From Siderastrea radians (lineage: Eukaryota > Cnidaria > Anthozoa > Scleractinia > Rhizangiidae): DNA of 64,000 nucleotides. The DNA is taken from the NCBI GenBank assembly GCA_964017195.1, contig OZ024895.1:9607501-9671500 (forward strand), in the 5' to 3' direction. Below are positions 1 through 42,676 of this stretch, piece by piece. The notes under the pieces are model-generated. The model searched no databases. It was not told where the DNA came from and worked only from the letters and a program-made list of their open reading frames with translations. A program made the position numbers and the translations under genes. Every line of letters starts with the position of its first letter. Within the stretch, counting starts at the first letter, position 1.

Positions 1-1482
1 GTTGTGTGCTTGCAGATTAAATTAAGGACAAAAATTTGTTTCTTCTCCCCATGAGCTCCAACCCTTTTTTTCAAATAATTTCACTATTAATTCGTGAAGG
101 ATCATGAATTCAAATTTTAGATAGCTAAGAGCCAAAACGCTAGTGCAAAATGGAGCAGTACCCGGTGTTGTTGTTGGCATTAGTAACTGGTCAGCTGCTA
201 CTGACAGAATAATATAACACGAGAGAACTAAATGCAGGGAAAGCTTGTTGTAAATGAAGGTTGTTGAACGAAGAATTTTCTCAAAAACTGACTGTTTGAC
301 GATTCTAAGATGATCTCTGAAACGTACGGATCTATATATTTGATCGAAGATGACAGAAAATTGAGGTAACGGGTGCAAATGTAAACAGAACAAGATGCCC
401 TTCGTTGATTTCATTGTTTTGCAAGGCACTAAGTGTTCGCTAAATAAGTTTGCAAAACACAGGCTGTGATATAGGCAATATGACTTGCTTTCATTGATTT
501 ATTCTCAGATTAATAGTTCTAGATCAAGGTTGTTTTGTAAAGCGCAATTAGCAATCATCGAGTGGCATGTACTTCATAACTTGTTTATCTTGTGAATTGA
601 ACATAGTTAATGAGCTATTTGAATGCTGTACATTTTAATTAAAGCTATATGCGAAATGTTACCAGTTTACATTTGTGTCCTGCTGTAGTTTGAAACTATT
701 TTCGTGTTTTCCTGATGTAAGGGAGCATTGCTCGCATCACAGTTGCTCTTAAATTCCACGCATAGGTTGTGGTTCGTAATTTGCATAATGAAGAAATACT
801 GGTGTTTCAAAGCGGCGCCACGTTCTTTAAACCGTCTGGCCGCACGATTTTATTTTATTATAATTAAGACCAAGTCTTTAACTTTCCCTGACTGTAAGGA
901 AATTGCTAGACGAGGTCTCACTTTTTGTTAACATGTATTTTTGTTTACCCATTTTTCCTACTTTTTTAAAAGCTGTTATACTGGGTTGTTAAAAGGAACT
1001 GTTTTAACTACTCAAAACAACTACATGGAAATGTCAGTAACAATGTAGGATAAGGAAGAGTTGTACTTATCAACCAATAGTAGAATTTTGTCCTGCATCA
1101 AATTTTAAGTGTTGTGAGGAATTACCAAAGTTATTGAAAATTGGCATTTTTGTACCAGTAAAATGTGCATTTTTGTCCACCAGGGGACCCCCCTTGTAAC
1201 CTGTTGAAGAAAGCATTTAGAGCCCAAACGAAAAGTGTTTTTAAAGTACCCAGACAAAGTGCAATTCACATACAAGATTTGAAGGAAATCTATTTTGTGA
1301 CCAATTTGGGTTATGAGGATCTTAGGGAGACAGCCACTTAATGTTCTATGTTCAATGTTCAATGTTCACACTTCAATCTTGACTCTTCAATGTTCGAAGT
1401 TCACTTTTCTCAACAGTTTGTTACACATGGAAAAATGAATTTTAGGAAAACCAATAAGTAATGTAGGTTAACTCGTTAAACA
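1..1482. other. Intergenic DNA, no gene recognised
   Basis: No ORF here has recognisable domains or coding character. Around 1345-1400 there is a small run of imperfect TTCAATGTTC-type repeats just beyond the 3' end of the first helicase gene. No clear terminal repeat marking the edge of the helicase/recombinase locus was found. Confidence 0.5.
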
Positions 1483-4400
1483 TCAATTTGTAACACAAGT
1501 GCTAACTTTTTTCAATGTTTCCTGACAACATGAAAATTTGATTTTTACTCTTGACTCGGAGTAAAAAAAGTGAGTTATTCTTCCTCTCTTGGGCACTGAG
1601 GTACTTGTTTGCTCGCCTCGTCGCTTCTGAGACTTCTGTTTCTGAGAGGATGAGCGACTGTGCGCTTTGGGCGCCCTCGAGGGTGTTATGAAGAGATTCT
1701 CCTCCTCCTCGTCTTCCATCTCTTCACAAGGACAGGGTAGGGGGCACCAGATACTGTTAATGCGTTGGGCTTGAGAAGGGGATACCCACTTCATTTCCAC
1801 AGCCTTTCTTCTCCACTCCAACTGTACCAGTTTCGCGAGACCGGAAACTTCTTTCTTCTGAAATTTCAACTTGAGGGCTTCGACAGTCACTTCCATCATG
1901 TAATGGAGCGCACGCTTCACTTGCTCGTCTTTCGCTCCGTCCTCTTTTTTCTGAAGTTCTCGGAGTTCCTTTTTTTTCTCCATGACCCACTCATCGTTAA
2001 AGTACTCGCGCGCCTTCTTTTCGAGAATCCGTTGGTCTTCTTGCCTCTTCTTCGTAAAGTATTCTTCTCTGGAACGTTCTATGTTGGGATGATAAGGTCC
2101 GTTCACCGACTGTAGCAAGTGGGCGTCTTCTTCCCTTATCATCCCCAGTGAGATCCAGCGTTCCTTAGTTTCTTCAAGGACACGTAATCGTGCACACTCT
2201 TCCCGGCTGTCCCTTTCATCCACGGTGCGTTTTACTTCAGTGGCGAGTAGAACAAGTTGCCTCTGCTTGAGACTGTGACATGGCTGTTGTTCTCGCAGAC
2301 TTGCAATTTTCTCTAGACTCTTCTCCAAACAGGTAGAATTAGTGTCTTCGATCTCTCCCTCCTCCGCGCTGACTTCTTTGTCCGTGTTCGATTCCTCTTG
2401 CTCACTGCCTTCGTGCTCGCTTTCGATTTCATCTAGTTGAATGGTTCTAATTCTGTTCTTTTCGTCTTCATCGATCTCTTCTGGCTGTAAACTGGTCCCT
2501 GGCATGGGAGGGGGTAGCTCATCTTCCGGAGTACGTGCAAGGCCACATGCCCAAATAATGCAGTCCTTTGCATTAGCTCGCAAGAATTCTTGCACTCCCG
2601 CTACACACGGCGAGGTCAGACTTCTAAAGAAGAACTTTCTTAAGCGGGCGTCCATGGCAGTGTTGTGCTCCCCACCGAAATCCATGTCCGTCTGACAGGT
2701 GATAAACATTGGACACCTTATGACTGCCAGGCTTGAAGTCTTATATTTGCGGTCGTGTGCCGTGAGCCCTCCTTGTGTCAATATCTTCCAGTCGTCTGGA
2801 TCCATCAGCTTGGTGTGCGCCTCGTCCAGAAAAATTATTTGAGTGTTTTCATCGACCAGGCTCTTGTTGAAAGCCTTTTGCTTGCTGATCATGGCCATGT
2901 ATCTTGCTGGGATCAAGCGAGAGATGGGGGTGAAAAGGCTCGTCTTTCCACTATTAGGCTCACCTATGAGGCACATGACCCTTTCTTTGTGCTGTTTAAT
3001 GCGGCAGTTGAGGAGTCGAATGTAATATTCGCAAAAGTGTGCCATTTCTAGCTGGTTGAGGCTATTCTGTAGTATTTCTTTGAAGTATCCAGGATCCGGC
3101 GTCTTAGTGTGTTGGTAGTCGATGTAGGCCCTGAGAGATTCTTTGCCGATGTCTGTTTCTTTGATGGGATGGAAAAAGAACTTTCTCTGGTTTATTGAGA
3201 AGCACCAACCTCCATTGACTTCGATCAAGTCGTAGTTGATACACAGCTGCTTCACGAATTCGCAATCTTTATCTCCAAGGATTTCTACGAGCTTGTTCAG
3301 ATTCTTGATGATGGTGTCTTTAAACTGGTCGTTGCTTGCCAGCAGAGGAAGAAATTTCTTCACCGAACAGCAGTGGTGATATGTGTATTTAGAAGACTTC
3401 GCCTTTTTGAAAACTTCTCCACTGTACAGAGCGTAACCCAATTTCCCCATTGCTCGTTCGATGTCATTAATCGCTACAACAATCGGCGATGCCAGAGCCT
3501 TTGTGACTTTTGGGACCTCTGAAGGCAAATCGCATGCTTCGATGCCAATCATCAAATTGGAGGCCGGAACGGACAAGAGAGTGTATTAACTTGTCTCGCA
3601 GATTTGCAGTAAACGAGGTACCAACAACTTGTAACCTTACAACACGTTCACTTGCGGTAAGTGCACGTGACTCCAGTGGCTCCTCTATCAATTGGTCTTG
3701 TAGCAATTGGAGACTGTAGGAAAACGACTTGTCCACTTTGGTCTGAATGAAGAGGTTATTGTGATCTTTTAGCGTAGTACATAATGGTGCACAAGATTCC
3801 TCTTCACCTCGTCGTTTGCAGACTGGCAGGGTTTTAGCTGTAATTTCCATGCCTGTTTGTAATAGGGCCGAGTGCAAGGGTACCGTTGAAACGCGCATTC
3901 CGTTGGAGGATTGGACTGCAATCCAGTAAGTTATTGCTGGCCTGTACTTTTCTGGTAATTCATCGTTCTGGTCGTCCTCTTGTTCTTGGCTGTTTGCCTT
4001 CTCTCCCTTTTCTTTACTTCGCTTCTCTAGTGCGGCGACAGAGGAGAAGAAAAATGCTACTCCTTTCATTTTCTTTATCTTTTCGTCACACTCATCACGT
4101 TTCTGGCATATGTTTAGCCACAGATCGTCACAAGACATTCCCTCATGTTTGCTGTAAGATAATTTAGCTGCCAAAAGAGAACAAGTTCCCTGGACAGCTG
4201 GCAAGACCTTGCTAAGCACAGCACTCCTGATTCCCTAAAATAATTACAAGGAAACAGTAAACTAGTCAGCACAGAATCACTACAATTGACGAATAATCTG
4301 TAGGAAGTATTTAGACTACAATGCCTATTAGATTAACTGGTTAGAAAAGCCTAAGCAATATAGCATTTCGTTCCTGTTAATTGCTACGTTTTAAGCTGAA

Positions 4401-4540
4401 CTTTGTAAATTCGTTCACTAAAAGAACTGAGAGCAACTTTTCTTCGTTAACTTGTTTTAAAGCTACGAAGAAGGAATATGAAATCTAGTACATACCTTAT
4501 TATTGAGTTGCCTTGCTGGTGCTGTGGCCATCACTGTCAT
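1483..4540 (-). CDS. E1-like superfamily-3 helicase, copy A (one apparent frame break)
   Basis: Predicted DNA-replication helicase of mobile-element or viral origin. A 15-codon first exon (4496-4540, ATG at 4540, donor GTATGT) joins in phase to a long exon starting at 4234. The reading frame breaks once near 3540 (+1 shift); the next frame then runs uninterrupted to a stop at 1483. In the downstream frame the core lies at about residues 200-320: Walker A GEPNSGKT, Walker B QIIFLDEA, the conserved DWKILTQGG, the B' segment HDRKYK, motif C CPMFITCQ and an Arg-rich finger region (ARLRKFFFRSL). The B'/motif C layout resembles papillomavirus E1 more than parvovirus NS1. The segment before the core is where an origin-binding domain would lie, but none is identified. 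The C-terminal half is Glu/Lys-rich coiled coil, then LFITP, a basic stretch and a PIP-box-like RITHFF. The frame break could be real decay or an assembly error. It is paralogous to the 8933-12256 gene along its whole length. Confidence 0.75.
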
Positions 4541-5060
4541 CGAGTGAAATGAGAACGAAGCAACGTTTCAGAGTTCTTTTATAGCATGCTAGCTTCATTG
4601 TTAAAGTTCCTCAGTTTGATCTTTTCTTTTCGATAAATTACGGGCAAAAATAGGCGGTTAGTGGTAAAAAATGCCCCGACGAGCTACATTTTTAAACTTC
4701 CTGTGTGTGATTTTTTTTGTTTTCGATACAATCAAGTCAAAAACAAAATGCCCGTGCAATTTACAGTGGTTACATAACTTCTTCTCCTTGGCAAAAAGTG
4801 TAATAAAGAATCTGGAAAACAATGAAGCGCAAACTAAACATTCATACCGGCATATGATCAATGCCTTAAAAACATGTCACCTTAACAAGCATTTCCAGAA
4901 TCAACAAAAAGCTTAACGATATTTTTAAAATACTAGCGAGCTAATTGAAAGGATTATTCTTTTGTGCAGCACAGTTGTAATTAATAGCTTTTCTCGGCGT
5001 CTCCGTCACACTACGAGAAATATGCAATTTAGATAACGCACGTTATAGGAATATATTAAG

Positions 5061-5062
5061 AA

Positions 5063-5094
<32 letters not shown>

Positions 5095-5226
5095 ATAATA
5101 ATAATAATAATAATAATTATTATTATTATTATTAGTAGTAGTAGTATTGTTAATATATAATAATAATAATAATAATAATAATTATTATTATTATTATTAG
5201 TAGTAGTAGTAGTATTGTTAATATAT
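5061..5226. repeat. Two head-to-tail trinucleotide palindromes (ACT/AAT : ATT/AGT)
   Basis: The sequence runs (ACT)n(AAT)n(ATT)n(AGT)n and then repeats (AAT)n(ATT)n(AGT)n. Each half is its own reverse complement, so it would fold into long AT-rich hairpins. The motif TATTGTTAATATA follows both palindromes. It may be an expanded microsatellite or an origin-like cruciform. Confidence 0.85.
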
Positions 5227-6084
5227 TCCTATACATATACTGTAAGTTGTGTCCCCGCCGTCTCCGTTGTCTCTGTTGTACTTTATATTATTTTATATTC
5301 CTTGAAACTGATCTGATGAACTGTAAGTTCTGTCCCCGTTGTATCCGTTATCCCCGTTTTACTTGAGATATTTTGACTACTGAGATCTGACTAAAAGTTT
5401 AATTATTTCTTTAGTATGACGGATAAAACGGAGATATCGGGGAATAGTAGTTGGAGCTTGTTTAAGTTGATATTCCTTTTTGCTCTTTTCATTGAGCGTG
5501 AGTGTTTCGCCATTTGTGTCTGTGATCTATTTCCTATTTAGTTTGTTCTGATTTGCACGATTGTATACATTCAACGGAGATCACGGCTATGCCGGGGACA
5601 AAGGGACTCACTTTTGTATCATGGAATAAGATAGCTCTGGGAAAACCCTTGTTTTGCTGATATAAATTTAAGGCCATCATCTCTTAACACTGTTTCAGGA
5701 ACAAGTGTGCCTTTTTTGTAGCTGTTCCTCTTATAAGGAACACTTTGGAACATAAACCTTCCCATTTGAGGTATATTTTTGGCAAAAGCAGGTAAAACGT
5801 AAGTTTTAGCAGTGCCCTACATAAACCTACATGGAAACGTAGTTATGGAGAGATTTGCGCGGCAGTCAGAACTATTTTAGGGTTTTTAAAATCAGGAACT
5901 GAAATTTTGGGAAACGATCTTATACGTTTCCCAAAATTTTTACTTTCAAATTTGAACATGTTCTAGCATGATTTTATCAATCAAATTTTGGCTGTTGTAT
6001 CTGTTCAGTATAGAGAGTCATAAGATGCTTTGGCATATTTTATGCATCCTTTACGTGGCTTTTTAACTTACTTTTATTTTTTAG

Positions 6085-6645
6085 CACTGTTCCCATTTTT
6101 GCTTTGGGAACGTTCCGATTAAGAGATGATTGTTCCTCTTTGGAGTGGTCCTTTTAGCATCAAAAGGAACAAATTGCTGTTAAAAATAGGAACAAAGTGT
6201 TCATTTAGAGCTAAAAAGAACCTTTTGTTCCGAATTTTTAACATTGAAAGGAACTTTTGTTCCTAAATGAGTGGCCTAGGAACAGGTGTTCCCAATGGTA
6301 TTGTTCCTCTTTTATCATTTTGGTCCTTTTTAATCGCTTGAGGAACAATTGTTCCCATTAATGCGTTCCGTTTTAGAGTGGCTGTTCTTTTATGCTGACA
6401 CGAGGAACTTTGGTTCCCAATTAATTACGTTCCTTTTTTTGTAAAGGAACGTTTGTTCCTTTCTAACATTGTTCCTGTTTTGAAAAATTGGTTCCTTTTT
6501 ATTCACTTGAGGAACAATTGTTCCCATTAACAGGTTCCGTTTTGAACGAAATGTTCCTTTTTATTGGCACGTGGAACAGTTTGTTCCTAACCATTAGTTC
6601 CTATTTATGTAAAATGGTTCCTATTTAGAAATGACAGTTCCTTTG
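6085..6645. repeat. Array of GGAAC/GTTCC half-sites, many paired as palindromes
   Basis: About 28-30 GGAAC or GTTCC pentamers lie in roughly 560 bp. At least seven pairs form GGAAC-N4/5-GTTCC palindromes, starting near 6250, 6279, 6342, 6403, 6446, 6511 and 6573; two are GGAACAATTGTTCC exactly. Most successive pairs are about 43-65 bp apart. The inner hexamers AACAAT/ATTGTT match the papillomavirus E1 site type AACNAT (established knowledge). The neighbouring genes encode E1-like helicases, so an iteron-like origin is a reasonable hypothesis. A recombinase-binding or Myb-binding array is the alternative. Confidence 0.7.
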
Positions 6646-7033
6646 TACATCTTGTTCAACAGAAACATTCTTCTTTTCTTGCCATCTATGATTTTATCGC
6701 TTTTTAATTGGCAAAAACATTTGGTGTAGTGTTTTAAGTTTCAAACAACACGAAGCAGTGTCAATAGCAGATTTTTAAAGACTTTTCGAGGCCCTTATAG
6801 ACTTGCCCGGGCAAGGTTGAATATAATCGCACCAACGCCATATATCACCTCGAATTTGTAAGCTTACTTAAGAATAATGAACAGTGGCAAGCAGACACAT
6901 GCCTGAGCAAGCAGGGGCAAGTTGGGGCAGGTTGGGGCAAATTTAAACTTGCACAATACAGCCATTGTTTTTTGTCGCATTTGTGTTTTGTTCTCTATTT
7001 ATGTAAGTGGAACAAATTGTGTGAATCACTCAG

Positions 7034-8719
7034 ATGTCCGACATGAACAAAAAGGGTAAGGTTGACTGGTCGAAAATTGATGGCTCATCACCAAAACCAA
7101 AACGGCTTCACTTGGAAAAAGAAGAAACAGATAGCTTGTATCACTGTCCAATACAAACGTGTGATCACGATGGATTTAAAAGTCAACGTGGCTGCAGGAA
7201 ACATGTGAACACCAAGCACAGTTGGTTCTTTTTCTTTGACGAAAAACCCGACGTTTCAAGTACCAAAGAACTTGCCGATGATGATACATCGGGTGAAATC
7301 ACAAAACAAACTGCCAGGGTAATGCCTTCGTTTTCAGTTTCCAGCCAAATTGGCGAGTTATTCACGAAATGGTTGACTGGAAGTGGTGGGGGTTGCAAGA
7401 AAGATCGTGCAGCTCAGCAGATAGCCAAGAGATGCTTTAAATTTCTCAAATTTTGCTGCGAAGATGAAGAGGAATTGAGTTTTGAAGTGCTGGACTTTAG
7501 CCTGTGTTCTCATAGTCTGTTGTTCAAGTTTATCGACTACTTGCAAGATGAATGCAAACTCGGACACGGTGGCCGATTGGGCTACATTGATGCGATCTCC
7601 GAATTAATCGACTTCAGAAAAATAAACGGCGCATCAGACACAGTTCTTCGAAATTTGTCCTCAACGGAGCTGTACCTTAAACGAGCGCGCAAGACGGTGG
7701 CAAAGATGATGAGACTGCAGTGGACACAAGATCTAGACATTGAAACTTTGGATGCTAGGGGGCACTGGGCAACCATGGAAGAACTGTTAGAAGTGGTGAC
7801 ATTTCATTTGCCTCGTTACGAGAACACTGTGAAGACGTGCAAAACTATTCCAGGTCAAGTTAGTCCTTCGGACTTGACATTTGCCACGAAATTTGTCGCG
7901 GTGTATTTGTTCATCAAGGTAAAGGGGTCTCGCCCTATGACTTATCAGTACTTGACCGTGGACATGGTCAGAACAGCGAAGGAGAACGGGGGATTCATTG
8001 ACCAGAAAAAGTTCAAGACCGCTAGCAAGTATGGGTTTGACTCCTTAATTTTGACCGATGCAAGCATGCAGGTGCTCGATAGTTACATCAATTTCGTAAG
8101 GCCATTGCTAAAACCCCAGTGCGAGTTCGTTCTGGTCACGAAAACTGGAGGTCAACACAGCAAATTGGGCGACGTCATGAGTAAACTAGTCTTTGATGCA
8201 ATCGGAAAGTACATTCATCCGACCCGCTATCGTCAAATTGTCGAAACGGAAAGCCTTAATCAGCTCACTAGTAAAGAACAAAGGATTTTGTCCGAAGACC
8301 AAAAACACAGTTCAGCCGTCGCCAAAGTTCACTATCAAAAGCAGAGGTCGCACGAAGTTGCTGCGATGGCCCACGAGTGTCTACAAAAACTACAAGGTAC
8401 CAAGGGATCGGAAGTGGACAAGGAAGTCCACACGAGGTTTGGCTGTTCAACTTCAAGCTCGTCGCCATCAGTTGAAACTGCAGAAAGAACAATCACGCCT
8501 CCCAAAAAGGTTGTCTCCTCAACTTCACCCTTGCGCATTCAACGGAGCCATCGTCGGGTCTTAAAATTTACGACCGACGAGGACCAATTTCTAAAAGAAG
8601 GGATAGATAAACACGGGTTTGGACAGTGGACTGCCATCTTGAGAGATTCCGAATTCAAATTTCAAGAGGGAAGAATGGCAGACTCTTTAAAGAAAAGGGC
8701 CGAGCTCAAATTCATGTAA
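7034..8719 (+). CDS. Tyrosine-recombinase-like protein with C2H2 finger and C-terminal Myb domain
   Basis: This is a 561-residue single-exon ORF whose start ATG directly follows CAG, a possible splice acceptor for a 5' non-coding exon. Residues 38-62 form a C2H2 finger (C38-x4-C43-x13-H57-x4-H62). The middle is helical. The C-terminal half has a tyrosine-recombinase constellation: R300 (GSRPMTYQYLT), H395-P-T-R398, H425 and Y434 in KVHYQK. This is the catalytic pattern seen in Crypton-type transposases. A Ser/Thr-rich linker leads to residues ~508-561, which resemble a telobox Myb/SANT domain (DEDQFLKEGIDKHGFGQW, then an ILRD...F...GR stretch). It probably binds and recombines DNA to integrate or excise the local element. 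It is convergent with helicase B (213-bp gap) and divergent from helicase A. The recombinase assignment rests on spaced residues only; a captured host nuclear factor is the alternative. Confidence 0.7.
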   Translation: MSDMNKKGKVDWSKIDGSSPKPKRLHLEKEETDSLYHCPIQTCDHDGFKSQRGCRKHVNTKHSWFFFFDEKPDVSSTKELADDDTSGEITKQTARVMPSFSVSSQIGELFTKWLTGSGGGCKKDRAAQQIAKRCFKFLKFCCEDEEELSFEVLDFSLCSHSLLFKFIDYLQDECKLGHGGRLGYIDAISELIDFRKINGASDTVLRNLSSTELYLKRARKTVAKMMRLQWTQDLDIETLDARGHWATMEELLEVVTFHLPRYENTVKTCKTIPGQVSPSDLTFATKFVAVYLFIKVKGSRPMTYQYLTVDMVRTAKENGGFIDQKKFKTASKYGFDSLILTDASMQVLDSYINFVRPLLKPQCEFVLVTKTGGQHSKLGDVMSKLVFDAIGKYIHPTRYRQIVETESLNQLTSKEQRILSEDQKHSSAVAKVHYQKQRSHEVAAMAHECLQKLQGTKGSEVDKEVHTRFGCSTSSSSPSVETAERTITPPKKVVSSTSPLRIQRSHRRVLKFTTDEDQFLKEGIDKHGFGQWTAILRDSEFKFQEGRMADSLKKRAELKFM

Positions 8720-8932
8720 AAATGTAAAAATAATTGCTTCAGAGTACACGCTGTATGTTGGAGTCTCGAGATTGTGACTTAAATCACAGACAGCATAACT
8801 CAACAGGAAATCTTTATTATAGACTGGCAAAAACCAAAACCTTTCGTTTCGATTGACATTGTGATCGTGTACATTTTAGGCTTACTCCTTCTACTATTTG
8901 TACTACTGCTACTAACACTACAACTTTTAAAT

Positions 8933-11900
8933 TCATTTCTGACTCTGGTAGTAGTTAAAGAGGGTGTTCTTCGGTTTCTTGGCAACCGGCTGACTTCGGG
9001 GAAGACCACCTCTCGTCGGCCTCTTTTTCCTCGCGGGTGAGGGATTGCAGCTGGTTGACTGAGGAGTTATGAAGAGTTCTTCTTCGGCGTTGTCGTCTTC
9101 CAGTTCTGGTGGAGTTTGTGCCTCAGTCGGCAGATGCTCTGCAACGCTTTTGACTAGGTGCTGGTCTTCCTCGCGAAGAATTCCAAGCTCTATGCATACC
9201 CTTCTCCGCTCCTCCACTGCCTCCTTAGTGTTCAATGTGACGAGGTTGCGATGGTGTAGCTTGAGCTTCTCGCACAAAATCTCTTTATAGGCTCGCAGGT
9301 TCTTAAGGAGAGACGGATCCAGAGCCGCGTTACATTTCTCAACACATTCCTTCAGGTCCTTCTCTGTAGACCTAAGCCAATTTCCCGCGTAGGCTGAACG
9401 CGCCTTTTCGCGACGCAGCTCCTCCTCGGCCGCCTTCTGAACACGTTCGTGCCTCTGAATGTCTCGGACAATTGGACTTGGAATGGGCTCGTCTGGGTTG
9501 ATGGGGAGCAGTCTTGCGTTCTGGCTCGAAACGCCCCTGCGTCGGAAAAGAGCTTGCCTCCTTCCGTGCTGCTCTTGTTGCAACCGCTCTTCTTCGTTTC
9601 TTCTTCTCTGCTCCATTTTCAGCATCTGCTCTAGTTGTCTTCGGCGCAGAGTACCAGGGTGCGACTGCTCGATAAGATTTTGCAACTCCTTCACTCGATC
9701 GTCTTCCGGGGAGCTGTCCGTGTCGTCGGGGTGTGTGTTGTCAGTTAGTGCCTCCTCACCCTCGTCGGCCGGTGCATCCTGAGTCAAGAGTGCAGGCAGC
9801 GACAGAGCTCTTATCGCTCCCTTCTCCTCCTCCAAAAGAACACCTTCGGCAGCAGTGAGTTCGTCTTCACTAGCGCTGGTTTCTTCTTCGTCTGCCGACT
9901 CTTCATCTTCTTCCGGTGCCTTAGCCATCTGCGCGGCCCAAATGACACAATCCATTGCGTGTTTTTTCATCCACGCAGAGGCTCTCTTTTTCGGCTGTGG
10001 TAGGCTTCGAAAGGTATAAGTCCTCAGCCTTCTGTCCATAGCGGGCTGGTCGGCTGGACCAAAGTCAAGCTTTCGCTGCGAGGTTATCAACATCGGGCAC
10101 CGATTTATGAAAGCCCTTGCGTTTCGGTACTTGACGTCATGTGCGGCGTAGCCTCCTTGGGTTAAGATCTTCCAATCGTCCATGTCAAGTGTCTTTTCTG
10201 TGGCCTCATCAATGAATATCACCTCTGTGTATGGTGTTATCATTGACTTGTTAAAGGCGCGTTGTTTCGTAACAATGGCTACATTCCCGTGATGGATAAG
10301 ACCGAGAATTGGAAAGAACAAACTGTTTTTTCCGCTGTTTGCGTCACCCACTAAGCAGGGAACTTTATCCTTGTGACGTTTCTGATTATAGCTCAGCAGT
10401 TTTAGGAAATCGTCGCAGAAGTTCCTTAGGTCCTGCTCTCCGAGACTGTTTTCCAGAACTTCTTTGAAGTACTTTGGATCGGGATCTCTTGCTGGATCAT
10501 AAGGGCAGAACGCTCTTGGCGACACCTTACCAATTTGGTGATCTTGAATGGCATTTTCAAGGAAGGATCGCCTCTTTATAGACCAACACCAGCCATCGTT
10601 CACCTCGATTAGATCATGGTTGATGGTCAACGGCGCAAACAGTTCGCAGAACGGGTCTGACAGAAGTCCTATGACGCTCCTCATCTCTCGAACCAGTCTG
10701 GCCTTGAAAAACTCGTTTGTTGCCATGGTGTTGATGAACGCCGCGGCATCGCATTTGTAAGCATAGGTGAACTTCGAGCGCGCCTCTTTTTTGTAAACTG
10801 TTCCACGATGGCTGGCGTATCCTAGCCTATTCATTGCGATCGATATATCGTTTATTAAAACCGTCAACTTGTCTGATAGCATCTTATCCCCACTGGTCTC
10901 CTCGAGTGATGAACTTGAGGATTCGCTGCTTACACCAGCTGCATCAAAGCCAAATTTGTCGACTCGCAGCCCTGCTCCGATGAGTTTGTCTGTTGCTGTT
11001 GCCAAAGAGGACTGGAAACGTGAGTTAACCAGAGTCACTCGGACCACGTTTTCGGAACCACATTCATCTAGCTCCTGCGATGACGGTATTTCCTCGCCGA
11101 CTACACTTCGAAGCTCCTTCGCGAAACTCTGCCTGTAGGAAGATTGTACCAGCTCTTCCATGAAGGAATTCTTGTGGTCTTTGAGAACCTTGTAGAGTTC
11201 TTTCATAGCCTCACATTCTTTACCTTCTGTAAACGTAACCTGTGAAAACAAATATTCGCCATTAGAGAATACAGTTACAACGCATATACATGTATTGTAA
11301 TTGGGATACTGGTTCAAGCCTGGTCTGTTTTTTTTCTTTTCTTTCATTTCCAGTATCATTTTTGGGCCTGTAGATTTTATTTAACGCATTCAGAAAGTGC
11401 TGTTATATTGGAATTGATGAAAGCAAAGCCCCTGATTTTTATTCGGACAATACAAATACAATTACCAAACCAGAATAATTGTAAAATGTGCCCGAGTGTC
11501 ACCTGTAATCTTAGGTTTCAAATGGCATTTAGTTTGTTTCGGTTCGTTTGAAACTTACTGCATATGATGTTTTTGTTCAAGGACAACTACAAAACTCTTC
11601 AGTAACCTTCAAGGAAATCTATTTTGACATTCATAAATGAAATAACATGATTCTTTACCTTGTTAGCTGTCACACTCACACCATGTTTCAACAACTTTTT
11701 GTGTACTGTAATGGGGTTTGCTGGAGCACCGTTAGGCGTCGTCAAAGCGAGCCAGTAGGATATAGCGGGATAAAGTGATTTGTTTACAACTGCAGGATTT
11801 CCATCGATCCATTGTTGAGTTGTGCTGGTTGGAACTTGGCTGGATGTCGATTCGTCACTCTCATCACTCTCTTCTTCATGTTCTTCATTCACTTTAGCCT

Positions 11901-12256
11901 TACTCTTCTCCTGCGTGCTTATTGCACTGAAGAAAAATGCCGCATCTACAATTTCTGAAAAGGAAGAGCAAAAATAATTCTTCATGTAAAAACTTTTAAA
12001 CCACGCTTTTGGTAGCTTGAAAACAGTAAAGAGTCACGTTTTGACAATACCAACCTGAAATGGCCGTGTGGCAAGCATCTCGCGTTGCGCAGATCTTATC
12101 CCAAGACTTCTTGAGATCCCTTTCCTTGACGTCGCATACACATTTAGCACTTATAATGCTGCATTTTCCAGATACAACAGGACCCATGAAACACAAGGCA
12201 TTTCCCTTTATGGCCTCACTGTTCAACTGTCTGCAAGGCTGTTTGGCCCGCAACAT
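8933..12256 (-). CDS. E1-like superfamily-3 helicase, copy B (three coding exons, altered Walker A)
   Basis: Paralogue of the 1483-4540 gene. Exons 12055-12256, 11659-11954 and 8933-11239 join in consistent phases (1, then 0) with GT-AG borders. An optional three-codon exon at 12371-12379 (ATG-GTG-AAG before GTATGT) could precede them. The N-terminal exons share with copy A the motifs RQLN, W..IC..RD.C, an AFFFS block and YPAISYWLA. The core shows Walker A GDANSGKN (Asn replaces the usual Thr/Ser), Walker B EVIFIDEA, DWKILTQGG, B' HDVKYR and motif C CPMLITSQ (Gln where SF3 proteins usually have Asn). A long Glu-rich coiled-coil region follows, then LFITP, a Lys/Arg-rich segment and the C-terminal PIP-box-like KNTLFNYY. 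The frame is open throughout. The altered Walker A raises the question whether it hydrolyses ATP or acts as a partner subunit. Confidence 0.78.
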
Positions 12257-12424
12257 CTTTGCGGATCTGATAGAAATGAATCAAAATAGTTTGAGAAGTG
12301 GCTCTTTAATAATTATGCGATAAGATAGTTGTGAAATCAGAAGGAATAAATTTGACAGAAAAGCACATACCTTCACCATCTTAGGAAGGCACTGCTACAT
12401 TTAAACACTCCTCTGGTTGCAAAA

Positions 12425-12880
12425 TCTTCGCGTGAGGTGCTAATTAGAGTAGAAACTGCTGCTGCTTAATGAGCGTCAATGCACCTATCGTTTCCAAAAT
12501 AATGATGTACTGATTGCTGCGTTCAACTTTGTAACACAACACGGAGCAATTCGGACGGACAAACATATTCTATCACCACATTGAGAAATATGGTTCTACA
12601 TTTTAACACTGTAATTCTGAAGTAAGTGCTAATTTGGCTACAAGCTGCTAATGTCAAATGAACTGTATGGTTTTCTACACAATACTGGACTACTCAAAAC
12701 TGCAGTTGGATTTCATGGCTGTGATCAGCTTCAAGTTATTTGTAAGATCAAAGGAATGGCACATCACAGGCAAACACATGCATTCAGCATTTTGGGAATT
12801 TCAAAGTTGTTATTTTGTCGCATAATCAGATGAACGGTGCTAATTTGACTAAACGCTGCTTTTGCGTAACGAACATCACT
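12425..12880. repeat. Three degenerate ~200-bp direct repeats upstream of helicase B
   Basis: The block GGTGCTAATT(tga)CTA...GCTGCT recurs near 12435, 12624 and 12834, spaced about 190 and 210 bp. Similarity outside the core is low. The interval lies upstream of helicase B and encodes nothing recognisable. It could be a decayed satellite or a regulatory repeat. Confidence 0.4.
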
Positions 12881-13284
12881 TGTTCTATGGGTTACAAATA
12901 CTGAATGGTGGCCTAACTTATCCCCAGTTTTATTAGAATGGTGTTTTCTTGGTGTTAAAAGGTCTAAAATGCATTTGCAAATTCATGAATAAAACAGATA
13001 CTATCTTGAAAAGCAAAATCACCGATTACAGCTGGATTTTTCTTTTTTTTTTAGTCTTTGATCTTGCTAAAACTTCACTTTATTCTGTCACATTTCCTTC
13101 CTCTCCGCTTACTAGAAATTATCTGGTAAGGATGTTTTCCTTTTTATCGCTTGTAATAACAAGGAGAATTGGAAAAAACCAAAGGGAATAAATTACTCTT
13201 GCCTACGACTTTTCCGTGATATTCATCGTTTCCCTCTGCCAACTTCTGGCTGAGCAACAAAATTCATTTCAGTAATCCTGCACT

Positions 13285-14615
13285 GTAATAGAAGATAATG
13301 TATTCTTGTTTCCGCCTTCTCCTTGATAACCCTTCTTACCGTCTTCCAGAAAAAACTTTGGGCTGTGAAATATAATCCATTCTTGAATGTCAAACACTGC
13401 AAGTTCTCCCTTGTGAAAGACTTTTAAAAAGAGAGCGGAAAGGAAGGCCATCACGGAAAAGTCGGAAACGATAATATATTATCCTATTTTACTTCTCTTT
13501 GTTACTGTAAGTAACGAATAACATTATATATATTCTTATAAGTACTTACAGTAAGAAAGAGAAGTAATAGAAGGTAATGTATTCTTGTTTCCGTCTTCTC
13601 CGTGATAACCCTTCTTACCGTCTTCCAGAATAAACTTTTGGCTGTGAAATGTAATCCATTCTTGAATGTCAATCACTGCAAGTTCTCCCTTGTGAAAGAC
13701 TTTTAAAAAGAGAGCGGAAAGGAAGGCCATCACGGAAAAGTCGGAAACGAGAATATATTATCCTATTTTACTTCTCTTTGTTACTGTAAGTAACGAATAA
13801 CATATATATTCTTATAAGTACTTACAGTAAGAAAGAGAAGTAATAGAAGGTAATGTATTCTTGTTTCCGCCTTCTCCGTGATAACCCTTCTTACCGTCTT
13901 CCAGAAAAAACTTTTGGCTGTGAAATATAATCCATTCTTGAATGTCAAACACTGCAAGTTCTCCCTTGTGAAAGACTTTTAAAAAGAGAGCGGAAAGGAA
14001 GGCCATCACGGAAAAGTCGGAAACGAGAATATATTATCCTATTTTACTTCTCTTTGTTACTGTAAGTAACGAATAACATTATATATATTCTTATAAGTAC
14101 TTACAGTAAGAAAGAGAAGTAATAGAAGGTAATGTATTCTTGTTTCCGTCTTCTCCGTGATAACCCTTCTTACCGTCTTCCAGAAAAAAACTTTTGGCTG
14201 TGAAATATAATCCATTCTTGAATGTCAATCACTGCAAGTTCTCCCTTGTGAAAGACTTTTAAAAAGAGAGCGGAAAGGAAGGCCATCACGGAAAAGTCGG
14301 AAACGAGAATATATTATCCTATTTTACTTCTCTTTGTTACTGTAAGTAACGAATAACATATATATTCTTATAAGTACTTACAGTAAGAAAGAGAAGTAAT
14401 AGAAGGTAATGTATTCTTGTTTCCGTCTTCTCCGTGATAACCCTTCTTACCGTCTTCCAGAAAAAACTTTTGGCTGTGAAATATAATCCTTTCTTGAATG
14501 TCAATCACTGCAAGTTCTCCCTTGTGAAAGACTAATAAAATGAGAGCGGAGAGGACGGCCATCACGGTAAAGACGGAAACGAGAATATATTATCCTATTT
14601 TACTTCTCTTTTACA
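13285..14615. repeat. Five tandem repeats of ~276-279 bp, each joined by a hairpin
   Basis: The marker TATTCTTGTTTCCG occurs at 13301, 13580, 13856, 14135 and 14412, giving units of 276-279 bp with very high mutual identity. Between units, TTACTTCTCTTTGTTACTGT is followed about 50 bp later by its near-perfect inverse, so every junction can form a hairpin with arms of about 26 bp. The minus-strand ORFs beginning MMAFLSALF repeat with the unit and are not taken as genes. The last unit is the most diverged. Confidence 0.9.
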
Positions 14616-14764
14616 TTATTTTAAAATAACAGCAGAAGGGAAGGATAACACAGATTTTACGAGATGTGACTTTATTTCATAACCCTTTTTTCCTTATCTT
14701 CTACATATTGATTACTTACAGCTTTAAGGAGAAGCCAAGAAGGAACAGAAATTTTGGGAAACGA

Positions 14765-14766
<2 letters not shown>

Positions 14767-14808
<42 letters not shown>

Positions 14809-14925
14809 TTCTTCTTCTTCTTCTTCTTCGTCTTCTTCGTCTTCTTCGTCTTCTTCTTCTTCTTCTTCTTCTTCTTCTTCTTCTTCTTTTTTTTTCTTCT
14901 TCTTCGCTTCTTCTTCTTTTGAATG
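14767..14925. repeat. (TTC)n microsatellite
   Basis: About 160 bp of nearly pure TTC triplets with a few TCG and TTTT interruptions. The poly-Ser, poly-Leu and poly-Arg ORFs across it are artefacts of the repeat. It forms the left edge of the duplicated block that reappears, with a shorter TTC run, near 24290. Confidence 0.95.
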
Positions 14926-15903: not shown

Positions 15904-18900
15904 ATGTCGCCGATCGCGTACTTTATGTTGTTACTGCTTGAATTTGTCATTTCTGTCATAAAGCAGGTGAGTTTTCTATTTCTTTTTTCTCTTTAAATTT
16001 ACCAAGCTAATTACTGGCGTAACAGCAAGATACCTTGCTGAGCTACATTTCCGTGTTTTCCTGCTTGTTTCTCGTTTTTCATTGAATATTTTAAGAAATA
16101 AATGGCTGGAAAACGTCCCATAAAATTGCTTTCCATAAAGCTACCGCTGGGCAGCGGCAGCTTTTTTTTACAGGCGAACACCGTGTATGTAACGGTTACA
16201 TCTTTCCAGTACTAAACGTTAATGGTTGAGTTTAGACTATGGATGTGTTCTGTTTCTTTTCTAGTACATCAATATCGTTCTGAGCTTCAGAAAGCTTATT
16301 ACGGTTTCTCTTGGGGATATTTTAGTTATTATATAGTAACAGCATACCAGAATTAAAAATGCAAAATAAAATCTTTTGAAAAGTAGGTTTTTCTTTGTCC
16401 CACGCTCGCGACATGTTGAATATTCCATCTTTTGTTAGAATAAACTTATCTAGGTAGCCACGGGACTTGAAAACTAAAGGTCTTCAGTTGGCAACTTTCA
16501 GTCGGATGGGCGGGTGCCCAAAATTTCCAAAAAAAGTATTGTTTTCCTGTTCCGATGTTTCCGAGACAACGTGTCTGTCTATTTTCTGTATGCATACAAG
16601 GTGATCCCATTATAGCCATGATGTGTAAAAAATGGTGGGTAGGTGTAATTAGGTACAGTAAACAAGATTTATTTGATAGCAGAATCCACAGTCACCGCAA
16701 TGTTGCTGTTGATATTTGGATGGCTAGACGCACGATTCTCCAAAAACTGGGTTTGTTTTATTGTTTCTCCAAGATTGATATTTATAAACACTATTATACT
16801 GAACAGGAAAAAATACTCATGGACTAACGGTTGTCGCTCACAGCTACGACCTGGAAGGAAAAATGGCTCTTGACTTTTTCTATCCTTCCAAGCAAACATT
16901 TTCTTTTATTCTTCACTGCATTAACGCGATCAGGCGCGTACCTGCCTATAAGCCAGGTAAGCACTGGCTTACAAATTTTTTATTGAAATTTCTCTAAAAT
17001 CTATATGGGCCCGCGGGTCATTGCACTATGAAAACTTCCAACAGGTTTTGTCAAGAGTGTCAAGTGAAGACCGTCCCAAAAGAGCTAGGGATTGAAAATT
17101 CGTGGTAGCTGTCGTAATAACTCACACTCACTGCTCAGAATTCCGCGAAATCGAGTTTCTTTTTGTAATTATCTTTCCCGGATATAAAATGGGTTTGGAA
17201 GGCCTGCACGACTCCTACTTCACATCTTTGTACGCCACGCCTTATTTCGGTCTTTTGACCAATTTTGCTTCTTGGGGTTTTGTAGTGAATTTAGTTTGGA
17301 GGGTTCTTAAATGGTGAATGAATTGAGCCGTTACAACTTCGGCGTCGCATTTTTAATTCTTTGATCTCGAGGTCATATCTGATCAATTTTTCTGATAACT
17401 GGTGGATTCTTGTGGATCGAACTGCTTGTTATTCTCGACACGACAGACTAGATTTTCAACACATACTGATGAACCCGACTTAAGGGAGAGAGCCGTGTTT
17501 GATGGTGAGATTGTGCGATGGAAAGCGAAGTGGGCACACGTTGACCCAGAAGACAAACCAACCACTCTGCAGCATACGCTTTGCGGCACCAATAAAGAAC
17601 TGTATCCTTATGTTACGGCCATCCTCACCATCCTTGTCACAATGCCCATGTCGACAGAAACCCCTGAGCGTTCTTTTAGGACTATGCGGAGTGGGTTAAG
17701 ACCTATATGCGGTCTACCATGCAAGCTGACAGGCTGTCTGGTCTTAAGGCGTCCAGGAGGTTTGTGCTAGGAAGCTGCGCCGATTGAACATTTATAACTG
17801 AAACGTAAGGTTGGCATTGACCCTGCATTTTAGCGAACTAGTGTAGTATGATCTTGTTTATACACGTCACGTTTCATTTTGAAATTCCATCTGGTAACTA
17901 TTTCATGGTACAGCACTAAACCATAGCCAATCCGTACAACTGCGTAAATCTGGCGTGCGGACTGAAAGTATTGTTAAATGTAGCATGATGTTCAAAATTC
18001 GTAATAAGCTACAATAATGACAATAACGCTATGTCTATTCTTGATCTAGATTCTAGATGAAACTGTTGGTTCTATTTTGACTAGTGCTCTGCACTATTTG
18101 TTAGTCATACTGAAATAGTCCTACTACTTTTAAACCCAGAAGCGAGATAAGTTCCTATTAAGTGCCTATAGGAGTCATATTTCGCCTGTAGGTTTAAAAA
18201 AAAAAATTTGATACTAACATTAAACATTCCTTATGTTGCCTCGGTCCAAGTTTAAGTCTGTAGACTAGACTGCTTCCCATACTGCAAATGCGAAACTTGC
18301 AGGTCACAAAGCTTGTATCAATTCATGTACCTGTAATCAGTATTATGCTATATTAAACATTTTTTTTCATCTTGTGCATCCTGGCTTACAGGTAAAAAAT
18401 GGCCAGGAACGCACCTGGCGATCATTCTGTTAATGGAAGCAGAACGTTTCATAGACGTCAGTGCAATTTTTTTACGAAATAGATATTGCTAGTAGGAAAG
18501 GAAAACATCTGTGCATGATTATATTACGTTAAGGCATATGTAGGTAATCTGTGGGTGCTATACTAGCTTTCCTGCTGACCGTCGTATGGAGAACAGCACA
18601 TGGTGGCATCTTATTGGGTTAACTGTATCCCAAAAACCCTTTCTCTGCCAGTCACCACGTTAATATCGTTTCCTCACTGTGAAGGAATATTCTAAACCAG
18701 AATCGCCTCTTATTAGATACTCTTGCTGTTGTTAGTTGAGCCTGAATGAGAATGAATATCTGTCTATTTTCAAAAATAAATCCATATAATACGCAGTGTT
18801 AGGTTTGCTGGTTTTCATTTGCTAGAAAATCAAGGCCGGTTTACACGCTACTATTTGTTGCCTCGTCATTATCGAAGCACTGTGTTTACACCTTACAATC

Positions 18901-31154: not shown

Positions 31155-33588
31155 TATGAGCAAGGCGTCATTAATTCCAGTTTCAGACGACCTTATTAAA
31201 GAAATAAATAAATTGATCTACAACTTTATTTGGCATGACAATGATGAAATTAAGCGTACGGCACTTATTAATGATATTGAGGACGGGGGCTAAAAATGCT
31301 AGATATTGAGTCAATTATATCAGCTCAAAGGATAATGGTATTAAAGAAATAATTTGATGATGACGAAAGCTCTTGGAAGGTGATTCTAGATGAATTTCTT
31401 CAAGGCGTAGGTGAAAAAGTTATTCTTTTTTGTAATTTTGATACTCGCAAACTGCCAATTCATATTCCGGTTTTCTTTAAAGAATGCCTCGAAACGTGGT
31501 CTTAGTTAGTATCTTCGACAGTAAATGCCTACGACGATGCTATTAATCAGATTATTATTCAACAAATTGTCACTATGCCCATATATGGTAAGGAAGCCCT
31601 CAATATCTGTCATCCTACATAACAGCTATCCTGCGATATACGTAAATGACCATATTTGGAAGTGCACTGCAGATTTTCTTTCATTGCTTGTTTATTTGGC
31701 GGCCATTTTGAAAAGCGAGGCAGCTTTAGCAGTGTTCACCGTAAATTTTAACTCTCTGGAAGAAACTTTCCACCATTAAATGCTCTCAAAATGTTCAACA
31801 AGTATTTGCTTCAGCTCAAAAAGATATCCAGAGGTTGACTTGGAATTTTCATAGTGAGAACTCAACCAAGAAAATGCTATTGCGAAAGAAGCAGCACACT
31901 TGCTCATGGAAAGTTGTAAAGACTAAAGTTGAAAAGATTTTAATTCACAGGAAGAGGACTTATTCTCGGTAAGGTAGCAATATTTTTTTCCTTTGTCTTG
32001 TCATTTCCAAATATGAGTTTGTAAAGTCTTTTTAAGTGAACGGCAGTAAACTTCGATTTCTTGAAGTTCTGTTTTGATTTTTATTAAGCTTTATGTGTTG
32101 CTAGCTTTTAGGGTTTTTAACATAGAGCCGTAGTTTTTCTCGTTCTGAAAATGGTAGTCGATGGGAATTTGTTGAATAATAAAACAATTATCCTGCTCAA
32201 TCTTGTAGAATATCCCCTGATTTAGCCAACTCGTACAACTAAGTACCCCAAGCTTGCCGTGGATTGGAAGAAAATTTATTCGCAGAATATCCCCTGATTT
32301 AGCCAACTCGCCTCGTCGGCTAAGTATCAGGTGATATTCCGCGCGATTTTGCAGGATAATTGTTAATTATTGCTCAAAAAAAAAATTGAAAACTAAGTAC
32401 CCCAAGCTTGCCGTGGATTGGAAGAAAATTTATTCGCAGAATATCCCCTGATTTAGCCAACTCGGCTCGTCGGCTAAGTATCAGGTGACATTCCGCGCGA
32501 TTTTGCAGGATAATTGTTAATTATTTGGAATAATAAGAGTATCGTTGTAAAAAAAGCCTCAGTTTTCGAACGTTGCCTCTTTTCGGCTGGAGTGGTAAAA
32601 AGCGGAGACTTGTTATCCAACACGGGCAAATTTTTCGAAGGTGCAAAAGTTTCTGAAGCAATCTATCCACCATGGATTATTTTAAATTAATGAGTATTGT
32701 TGACGCTATACCGAATAATTGGAGACTCGTTTTTTAACATAATTCTCGACACTTTCCACCTCAATCCCTCAATTACTTTATATATAGCGAAAAGCCAGAA
32801 AGCAAACTCCTCCCACTGCTCAAAAAAAAAAAAATTTGAAAACTAAGTACCCCAAGCTTGCCGTGGATTGGAAGAAAATTTATTCGCTACCTTTTGTTGT
32901 TACCATTGAGACAAAGATAAGAGAGTTTCAATACAAACTACTCAACGACATTGTTTTTACAAATGAAAAGCTGTTTCGATTTAAAATGATTGATTCACCT
33001 TTATGCTCCTTTTGTAAGAAAGATGTTGAATCCCTCGAACATTTACTGTTTCACTGCAATTTTGTAGAAAGCTTTTGGAAAACCTTCACATCTTGGCTTA
33101 CGAATCAAAACATAACTTTAGAAACTTTAACTTTAGTGAACATCTTGTTTGGTGTATACAATGAAGATGAGGACAACATCATTTTGAATCACTTGATTCT
33201 TATGGCGAAGTTTCATATCTATAAATGCAAGTTAACACGAATCGTCGTCGTTGAAATTTTTCGAAGCCAAGACCAAGACAGTTTATCAAGTAGAGCGACA
33301 AATTGCAACTAAACATAATAAGCTCCTTAAGCACTATGGGAAATGGAAAAAAATCTGACCAAGCATTCAGTGAAGGAAAATTTTGCAAGTGTTTCTCCTC
33401 CTTTCTCCTTTTTTCTTAAATTGTAATGATTGTGTACGTAACATCTTTTTTTTTCCTTTTTTGTGTAAAACTGTAATCTTTATTGTACCTGTAAAAGCAA
33501 TCTTTTTCTGTATTCCTGTAATTCGTATTCTGTAATTCTTTCGTGTATATGGAAAATTAAAAAATACTTAATTACAAAAAAAAAACTT
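31155..33588 (+). pseudogene. Decayed LINE, 3' half of the reverse transcriptase ORF
   Basis: Open patches in several frames read like the C-terminal part of an L1/Tx1-type non-LTR polymerase: DDLIKEINKLIYNFIWHD near 31185, KMLDIESIISAQRIM near 31295, and at 32836-33235 a zinc-binding tail (LCSFCKKDVESLEHLLFHC). Stops and frameshifts interrupt the frame repeatedly; the last shift is near 33235. After the stop near 33358 comes an AT-rich 3' UTR ending in TTAATTACAAAAAAAAA. Hairpin repeats interrupt it at 32206-32523. It is not functional. Confidence 0.8.
32206..32523. repeat. 154-bp direct repeats containing a snap-back element within the LINE
   Basis: AAGTACCCCAAGCTTGCCGT occurs at 32241, 32395 and, as intact LINE sequence, 32844. 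In the first two copies the LINE segment is followed by GAATATCCCCTGATTTAGCC, which folds back on CGGCTAAGTATCAGGTGATA. The repeat thus fuses a piece of LINE coding sequence with a short palindromic element, and was then duplicated. Confidence 0.8.
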
Positions 33589-42499: not shown

Positions 42500-42676
42500 G
42501 AAATTCATATATTTGAACTGCGGAATGAAGAAATAAATGTAAAGAAGATCCTCGCAGTTATTAACGCAACTCATACAGTTGCGAAAAGAAAGCCTGAAAA
42601 CATCAGGCTTGCCGGGATTCGAACCCTGACCTCTGCGATACCGGTGCAGCGCTCTAACCAATTGAGCTATCAAGCC
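42500..42676 (-). mobile_element. tRNA-derived SINE, minus orientation
   Basis: The head at 42606-42676 (minus strand) reads like a tRNA: acceptor GGCTTGA paired with CAAGCC, D-arm GCTCAATTGGTTAGAGC and T-arm GGTTCGAATCC. The tail CTTTCTTTTCGCAACTGTAT plus GCGAGGATCTTC is shared with the plus-strand copy. Pol III A and B boxes lie within the head. It is taken as a SINE and not a working tRNA because the tail travels with it. Confidence 0.8.

Follow-up and report, generated by a model that had tools for sequence, protein, structure and literature searches.

A locus of the coral Siderastrea radians is best read as carrying a two-gene hexacoral mobile DNA element that measures ~9 kb and moves in circular form—a reading to which we assign a probability of roughly 0.7. 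The element pairs the gene of a tyrosine recombinase (YR) with that of an SF3 helicase. Both genes are enclosed by the same two ends, and the pair recurs across the 805-Mb assembly of this species, which was surveyed for further copies.

Unit layout and the two genes

The window, that is, the whole stretch of 64,000 nucleotides that was analyzed, contains at 1483–12256 parts of two units arranged head to tail, with three genes where they had first been noticed (Table 1). The open reading frames of Hel1, YR, and Hel2 could all be confirmed. The preliminary description had combined them into a single element, with one recombinase flanked by two helicases; the unit junction at 5902–5939 rules out this arrangement, and the layout is that of tandem units. 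In unit B, the YR gene on the plus strand is convergent with the spliced Hel2 gene on the minus strand. No YR gene of unit A was found at 1–1500 of the window or in the 3 kb preceding it. Apart from the two genes, the ORFs of at least 100 aa in unit B are frames that overlap these genes and a single one running through the microsatellite. Hence, as described before, no capsid, polymerase, or protease gene is evident, as judged from this general—not capsid-specific—ORF listing.

Table 1 Features of the tandem locus in window coordinates
Feature	Position	Strand	Remarks
Unit A, remaining part	1483–5916	-	from helicase gene through right end
Hel1, SF3 helicase gene of unit A	1483–4540	-	first exon ~4540–4496, exon from ~4234, helicase frame 3585–1483
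Head-to-tail junction of units A/B	5902–5939	.	form expected of a circle junction
Unit B, one full mobile unit	5917–14768	+	8.85 kb; from junction core through dyad array, YR gene, Hel2 gene, and tandem repeats to right end
Palindromic dyad array GGAAC-N4-5-GTTCC	about 6215–6590	.	candidate replication origin, or recombinase/regulator binding array
YR gene	7034–8719	+	561 aa, no internal stop; ORF 7025–8719 = 564 aa
Hel2, SF3 helicase gene of unit B	8933–12256	-	ORF 8933–11380 = 815 aa, further exons up to 12256
Tandem array of 276–279-bp repeats	13285–14611	.	4.8 copies, internal inverted arms; between helicase 5' end and right end
Right end of unit B	14741–14768	+	27/28 bases match 5894–5921
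(CTT/TCT)n microsatellite	14765–14918	.	entered by unit B right end; presumed insertion target

The E1-like core and the paralogy ascribed to the two helicases, which are both encoded on the minus strand, are borne out. Hel1 matches two Pfam families, Parvo_NS1 (E = 5.3e-5) and, passing the curated threshold, PPV_E1_C (E = 5.7e-7). Hel2 lacks a Pfam helicase match of its own; it aligns with Hel1 over 674 aa at 35% identity (E = 6e-116). The 700-aa ORF of Hel1 (1483–3585, minus strand) and its N-terminal frame (3467–4234, minus strand) overlap at 3467–3585, and a convincing intron is absent; hence, the window copy is probably frameshifted. For Hel2, exon limits were set from GT-AG sites and protein alignment rather than RNA, and the predicted exons (12256–12055, 11954–11659, and 11239–8933) would encode about 934 aa. 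Its Walker A motif reads GDANSGKN, with an N that no other row among the 40 aligned has at that place. Judged from their sequences, both window helicases look defective.

The Walker A/B ATPase domain and the fold that define SF3 helicases are present, and the ATPase parts share 12–18% identity over the aligned region with papillomavirus E1, parvovirus NS1, and AAV Rep. In the structural comparison of the predicted helicase model, the SaPI5 primase-helicase takes the top row, tied with NS1 and Rep. Model residues 13–183, where an origin-binding domain of the HUH or E1 type would be sought, appear as an α/β region; this N-terminal part is barely probed by the comparison, so that the lack of other families there carries no weight; one Rep68 row spans residues 28–605 of the model at an rmsd of 15 (N-terminal domain within the whole model). 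Foldseek rows for D5 and AsfvPrimPol were not taken as closer kinship, because they mirror the ATPase common to all. Sequence searches against the PDB returned nothing meaningful, and those against PHROGs gave weak matches alone. The C-terminus is a long charged region, often ending in a PCNA-box-like motif.

The YR comprises N-terminal C2H2-type residues, catalytic residues, and a C-terminal TRF-like Myb domain. The catalytic signature R...HxxR...H/W...Y of tyrosine recombinases is present at its usual spacing: numbered from 7025, R303, H398-x-x-R401, H428, and Y437 are spaced R303-98-R401-27-H428-9-Y437, compared with 99-23-9 in XerD, and the R-to-H distance exceeds that of XerD, FimB, and FimE by 4. 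R303, R401, H428, and Y437 are kept in 42/42 aligned YRs and H398 in 40/42, and the HxxR-H/W-Y part by itself was seen in 43 of 5000 shuffles. It is this motif geometry, together with the structure of the element ends, that supports the assignment as a putative tyrosine recombinase—not a Pfam match or a fold. The window YR gives C-terminal Myb-like Pfam matches just below cut-off and a weak RFC1 match. Among 21 YR members, all have the C-terminal Myb-like match and none matches a YR or DUF3504/Crypton-type Pfam family at E up to 10, a search in which HMMER filters can lose weak matches. The AlphaFold2 model is poor (pLDDT 36), and hhalign found no match of YR to XerD of E. coli.

Ends, insertion targets, and copies

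The junction between units A and B consists of perfect 15-bp inverted repeats (5902–5916 and 5925–5939) around an 8-bp core (5917–5924), reading GGGAAACG-ATCTTATA-CGTTTCCC with ATCTTATA as the core, and occurs likewise at two further loci, L043 and L046. A second subfamily has a junction with a ATCATCTA core and imperfect arms. Inverted arms around such a core and circle-type junctions—seen here in chromosomes only—make up a site of the tyrosine-recombinase type, in which cores measure 6–8 bp. Eight free right ends could be delimited, and each passes into a (CTT)n or (ATC)n tract. Two of five single-copy left ends adjoin a microsatellite, and the other three a short ATC-like stretch or none. 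Set aside in these counts were L045, a third-subfamily locus whose end is undelimited, and the tandem junctions L037, L039, L040, and L043. Within 13 kb, 36 of the 100 listed end sites have a neighbor on the same strand, and none has one on the opposite strand. One array contains six units with a period of 8,972 bp.

Of the 30 best helicase loci, among them the window's own and seven from one cluster, 29 have a convergent YR within 1.5 kb, the exception being L027; both genes are enclosed by the same two ends in delimited units. The common origin of helicase and YR as one element, which had been inferred from adjacency, is hence well supported, chance adjacency is ruled out, and the earlier reservation that the two genes might never be found together elsewhere falls away. 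Of the Hel1-type loci, 12/18 have no listed YR within 1 kb, the listed YRs being a small part of the YR candidates. These number 751 at first look, and many of the listed copies belong to units without room for a complete helicase. Units that have lost the helicase but retain an intact YR abound and likewise occur in tandem; the helicase is hence not required in cis. YR and helicase types show no one-to-one matching, and YRs near the window's type occur with three helicase types.

Some copies have moved recently, as five ATC-type copies differ from each other by 0.02–0.19%. Close copies of the window's unit are older than these (C4 YR dS 0.07, from an analysis in which three L002 rows read in a wrong frame were left out).

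Proposed life cycle and rival explanations

Most likely, the element has no capsid, leaves its site as a circle, is copied with the help of host factors, and integrates again. The anatomy of the ends suggests that the YR would recombine them at the ~15-bp arms flanking the 8-bp core, releasing or accepting the circle. On this circle, the SF3 helicase—of the E1/Rep/NS1/D5 fold—might act as replication initiator, probably at the GGAAC-N4-6-GTTCC array, and its C-terminal motif might recruit host polymerases via PCNA. Palindromes of this form lie upstream of the YR gene in three subfamilies; at 5922–7033, seven full GGAAC/GTTCC dyads and 32 half sites were counted, compared with no full dyad in 200 shuffles. 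The interval between the divergent genes, described before as origin-like, does contain this array, and it contains the unit junction as well. The pattern of ends suggests that the circle would then integrate into core-matching trinucleotide microsatellites, CTT or ATC by subfamily, or alternatively join a resident copy at its end, which would give rise to head-to-tail tandems. Helicase-deleted units with an intact YR may borrow the helicase in trans. The earlier proposal was of a replicating transposon without a capsid or, alternatively, of a locus that derives from a virus and integrates by tyrosine recombination; of this, the mobile two-gene unit without an evident capsid gene stands, and replication is what we infer for it.

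A viral origin, in which a small circular DNA virus of the E1, NS1, or Rep lineage or a polinton-like virus was endogenized, lost its capsid, and kept the YR for integration, appears unlikely. SF3 helicases of such fold are typical of viruses, and the accessible part of PMC4642659 describes YR and SF3 helicase combined in polinton-like viruses. There and in the accessible part of PMC12220804, polinton-like viruses and virophages share with the coral element a YR integrase, an SF3 helicase, and a predicted circular intermediate; they also carry capsid proteins and a packaging ATPase (14–40 kb in PMC12220804), and several of their helicases are fused to a polymerase, whereas no capsid or packaging ATPase gene is evident from the ORF listing of the 9-kb coral unit. 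YR-using endogenous viruses integrate in microsatellites: as described in the available portion of PMC10871703, endogenous crustacean nimaviruses of the telomere-repeat YR group have a YR whose N-terminal parts are C2H2 and SAM-like, insert into simple repeats, and are suggested to form episomes or concatemers; compared by description only, they differ in being large dsDNA virus genomes with a (TAACC)n target. A helicase-bearing cressvirus has been reported as possibly endogenized in sea anemones (PMC11071296). Against this origin stand the lack of evident capsid, polymerase, or protease genes among the ORFs of unit B and three scans in which helicase and YR queries were run against 2.9 million IMG/VR viral contigs and which yielded no confirmed relative. 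The coral helicase resembles papillomavirus E1, parvovirus NS1, and AAV Rep in ATPase fold and Pfam matches, but has its own N-terminal domain, the long charged C-terminal region, and the PCNA-box-like end, and no viral structural genes were noticed in its unit.

It is likewise improbable that the element is mobile but uses its helicase for excision, integration, or regulation, copies being gained by host repair or S-phase transposition. E1/Rep/NS1-type hexameric helicases are established initiators of replication, and the PCNA-box-like tail with the iteron-like dyads suits replication better. The abundance of tandem-forming, helicase-deleted units would fit a nonreplicative helicase, but these may be served in trans; most described Cryptons, too, have a YR without a helicase, as far as the accessible text of PMC3212892 shows. 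That a Crypton merely lies beside helicase genes of another repeat family or of the host is highly improbable: short YR units and the company of three helicase types would suit it, but the YR occupies the same convergent place at nearly all helicase loci.

Known systems and significance

Cryptons are YR DNA transposons of fungi, oomycetes, and animals, with which the coral element shares YR-driven transposition, a proposed circular intermediate, short-core recombination, and abundant non-autonomous derivatives (PMC3212892, accessible part). Unlike them, it has an SF3 helicase gene—"helicase" is absent as a word from the main text of PMC3212892—a C-terminal Myb domain, inverted-repeat junctions, and a microsatellite target. 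In the same accessible part, animal Cryptons have neither a C-terminal domain nor terminal repeats, with YRs that match DUF3504; the coral YRs show the C-terminal Myb-like match in 21/21 members and have no DUF3504 match in Pfam, a distinction from CryptonA and CryptonI that is drawn from profiles and descriptions, not Crypton sequences. The label Crypton-like given earlier is thus doubtful.

Tentatively, and at somewhat below even odds, the element would represent a class of mobile DNA in animals that resembles integrative plasmids: a circular replicon that has no capsid and is equipped with a clamp-recruiting helicase of the E1/Rep type, an iteron-like origin, and a YR that lodges it in microsatellites. 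SaPI-type satellites and integrative plasmids of prokaryotes combine an SF3 helicase acting at a site-specific origin with integrated and circular states, and on paper the coral element shares their YR integrase and SF3 helicase. SaPI-type satellites are bacterial and phage-packaged, whereas the coral genes have predicted introns and reside in an animal nuclear genome.

In the literature searched, which was accessible in part, with Repbase and most subscription papers outside its scope, we found no report of a transposon that combines a YR and an SF3 helicase, whether in corals or lacking a capsid; within these bounds, the pairing of YR-driven transposition with an E1/Rep-type helicase without virion genes is undescribed. 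If the helicase copies the circle, animals would harbor integrative-plasmid-like elements, which would bear on the plasmid versus transposon origin of small DNA viruses. Such a class would stand as a free-living equivalent to the modules by which these viruses replicate and integrate, and would add one more kind of self-replicating transposon to the Polintons and rolling-circle elements of eukaryotes. The YR appears to choose trinucleotide repeats via a short core, which could be of use for site-specific integration and is relevant to how coral microsatellites acquire long insertions. The near-identical dispersed copies suggest that this activity might be caught in living corals.

Genes and their linkage

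The three genes claimed by the preliminary description are present as described: two SF3 helicases, Hel1 and Hel2, whose helicase fold is evident, and a putative tyrosine recombinase (YR). The Walker A motif of Hel2 reads GKN, with N at that place in 0 of 39 other aligned rows. No convincing intron accounts for the overlap of the two Hel1 frames at 3467-3585, so this gene is probably frameshifted.

Features of the window
Feature	Position	Strand	Remarks
Inverted duplicate	1-844		pairs with 1-812 of locus L050, 88.5% identity, ~2.2 kb apart; spans the window's left edge, beside the truncated end of unit A
Unit A	1483-5916		right part of a unit
Hel1	1483-3585	minus	passes the cut-off of the papillomavirus E1 helicase model
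Hairpin	5044-5248		large, of TAC/TAA/TTA/GTA trinucleotides, inside unit A; similar hairpin at corresponding place in L046 and L052
Junction	5902-5939		AAATTTTGGGAAACG-ATCTTATA-CGTTTCCCAAAATTT; perfect 15-bp arms, 8-bp core
Unit B	5917-14768		one unit
YR	7025-8719	plus	open frame, 564 aa, between Hel1 and Hel2
Hel2	8933-11380	minus	35% identity to Hel1 across 674 aa
Hel2 exons, predicted	12256-12055, 11954-11659, 11239-8933	minus	limits set from protein alignment and GT-AG sites, without RNA
Open frame	17399-17770		presumably resembles a hAT-type transposase end
Open frame	32788-33312		presumably resembles a retrotransposon-derived protein
tRNA gene	42605-42676	minus	Rfam, 44.8 bits

A protein database search (E up to 0.001) returned 151 helicase and 1,026 YR relatives, the best 120 of each being examined by row. 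Among the matches listed, named helicase sources are Montipora, Porites, Oculina, Acropora, Desmophyllum, Actinostola, and Nematostella, and the only named YR source is Oculina. Five contig sizes—three near 80 kb—are common to both lists, against a mean of 0.1 and a maximum of 2 in a shifted-size control, which suggests, without proving it, that relatives of both genes share contigs.

In the window's own genome (804.8 Mb, 439 contigs; the window being C9:9607501-9671500), Hel2 matches at least 67 stretches, and six of the matching helicases lie on contig C9 at a spacing of 8,972 bp. Thirty loci surrounding the top helicase matches were extracted; the window's own is among them, and seven come from one C9 cluster. 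In 29 of them—all but L027—a convergent YR lies no more than 1.5 kb from the 3' end of the helicase, and nine of these loci, read with longer flanks, show the same arrangement. That the two genes belong together, previously argued from adjacency only, is thus borne out. For the 18 Hel1-type loci outside the window, a convergent listed YR was found within 1 kb in six and within 6 kb in two more, a lower bound because 77 of 751 YR candidates were listed. YR and Hel1-type genes also cluster at G000:C9:9485695-9501152, somewhat more than 100 kb before the window.

Helicase and YR types do not pair one to one. YR31-type and YR44-type genes accompany helicases ~60% and ~50% identical to Hel2, respectively, and YRs close to the window's have three kinds of partner: Hel2, the L028/L029 type (49% identity to Hel2), and the Hel1 type. 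Either modules were exchanged between units, as window-like YRs beside different helicase types in L028 and L029 versus L001, L002, and L020 suggest, or the helicase evolves faster. This leaves the linkage standing, yet speaks against strict co-descent.

Ends, junctions and target

Nearly identical copies located in different places agree up to abrupt boundaries. Two subfamilies differ in presumed target: CTT-type, which includes the window's copy, and ATC-type. Free right ends of the window's subfamily run into (CTT)n (window and L047), and its junction recurs in L043 and L046. ATC-type array junctions read GGGAAACG-ATCATCTA-CATTCCCC with imperfect arms, and all six free right ends read, GGGAAACGATCATC, continue into ATC-rich trinucleotide arrays (L032, L034, L036, L038, L041, L049). 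Left ends adjoin microsatellites in L031 and L042, show at most a short ATC-like stretch in L033, L035, and L048, and are tandem junctions in L037, L039, and L040. Hence, a microsatellite target has good support at the right ends but weaker support at the left.

The junction and end data thus divide the single span of the preliminary description, a YR flanked by two helicases, into parts of two units. Neither window positions 1-1500 nor the preceding 3 kb yielded a YR for unit A. The genome has 237 occurrences of the end word TTTTGGGAAACGATC (reversed control, 3), 17 of which go on into ATCATCATC. For 36 of 100 listed sites, a further site lies on the same strand within 13 kb; no site has such a neighbour on the opposite strand. 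A circle integrating into a resident end would produce this pattern, although head-to-tail arrays of this kind could also grow by unequal crossing-over.

Internal repeats and helicase-deleted units

Between junction and YR gene, where an origin-like structure had been noticed, lie seven GGAAC-N4-6-GTTCC palindromes. Two further subfamilies carry eight and two (~1.1 kb in each of the three), the bounds for the third being chosen by us as the left end of that unit is not delimited. Shuffles gave at most one, and window positions 16,000-64,000 hold none. Retention across deeply diverged subfamilies argues for a function: we prefer a candidate helicase-bound origin over accessory sites for the recombinase or control of transcription. 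The opposite element end bears 276-279-bp repeats (unit B) or an ~870-bp palindrome (L032). A 355-bp palindrome (94%) between the convergent YR and helicase stop codons of the ATC-type locus L031 (6586-6940) may end transcription in both directions.

Shorter units of ~4.6-5.8 kb hold many of the YR copies most similar to the window's. No helicase match was found in L051, and L052 retains only 67 helicase codons. The short, helicase-deleted unit in L046 keeps an open 152-aa frame (1037-1495), the helicase N-terminal domain alone, which may be a vestige or may act as a small DNA-binding regulator. An exact right-end site follows 34 of the 46 listed YRs on contigs C1-C6 at a distance of 1.2-5.5 kb (1.9-3.2 kb in 27), the search reaching 8 kb downstream. 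Full units require ~6 kb; helicase-incomplete units are therefore the majority of these 46. The same predominance of non-autonomous derivatives is reported for Cryptons (PMC3212892).

Age, selection and proposed mechanism

The ATC-type subfamily is recent: over ~5.26 kb, divergence is 0.02-0.19% among four dispersed copies plus one array unit. A further two copies stand 0.9-1.1% away from those five and 0.4% from each other, and array units differ among themselves by 0-5 of 5,262 bases. With its C4 sister as reference, the window's copy is older (YR dN 0.014, dS 0.072, ratio 0.19). Between subfamilies, leaving out L002 rows, pN and pS are 0.21-0.26 and 0.76-0.84 for YRs and 0.27-0.36 and 0.77-0.81 for helicases; both genes have been under purifying selection.

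By function, the known relatives comprise Cryptons, polinton-like viruses that bear a YR, and nimaviruses that insert into microsatellites; in the available portions of their descriptions, a YR with an SF3 helicase but without virion genes does not figure. The helicase may be of viral descent. We propose that the element is most likely a YR transposon that would form a circle and whose helicase would start replication using host enzymes—perhaps with PCNA recruitment and, for helicase-deleted units, supply in trans.
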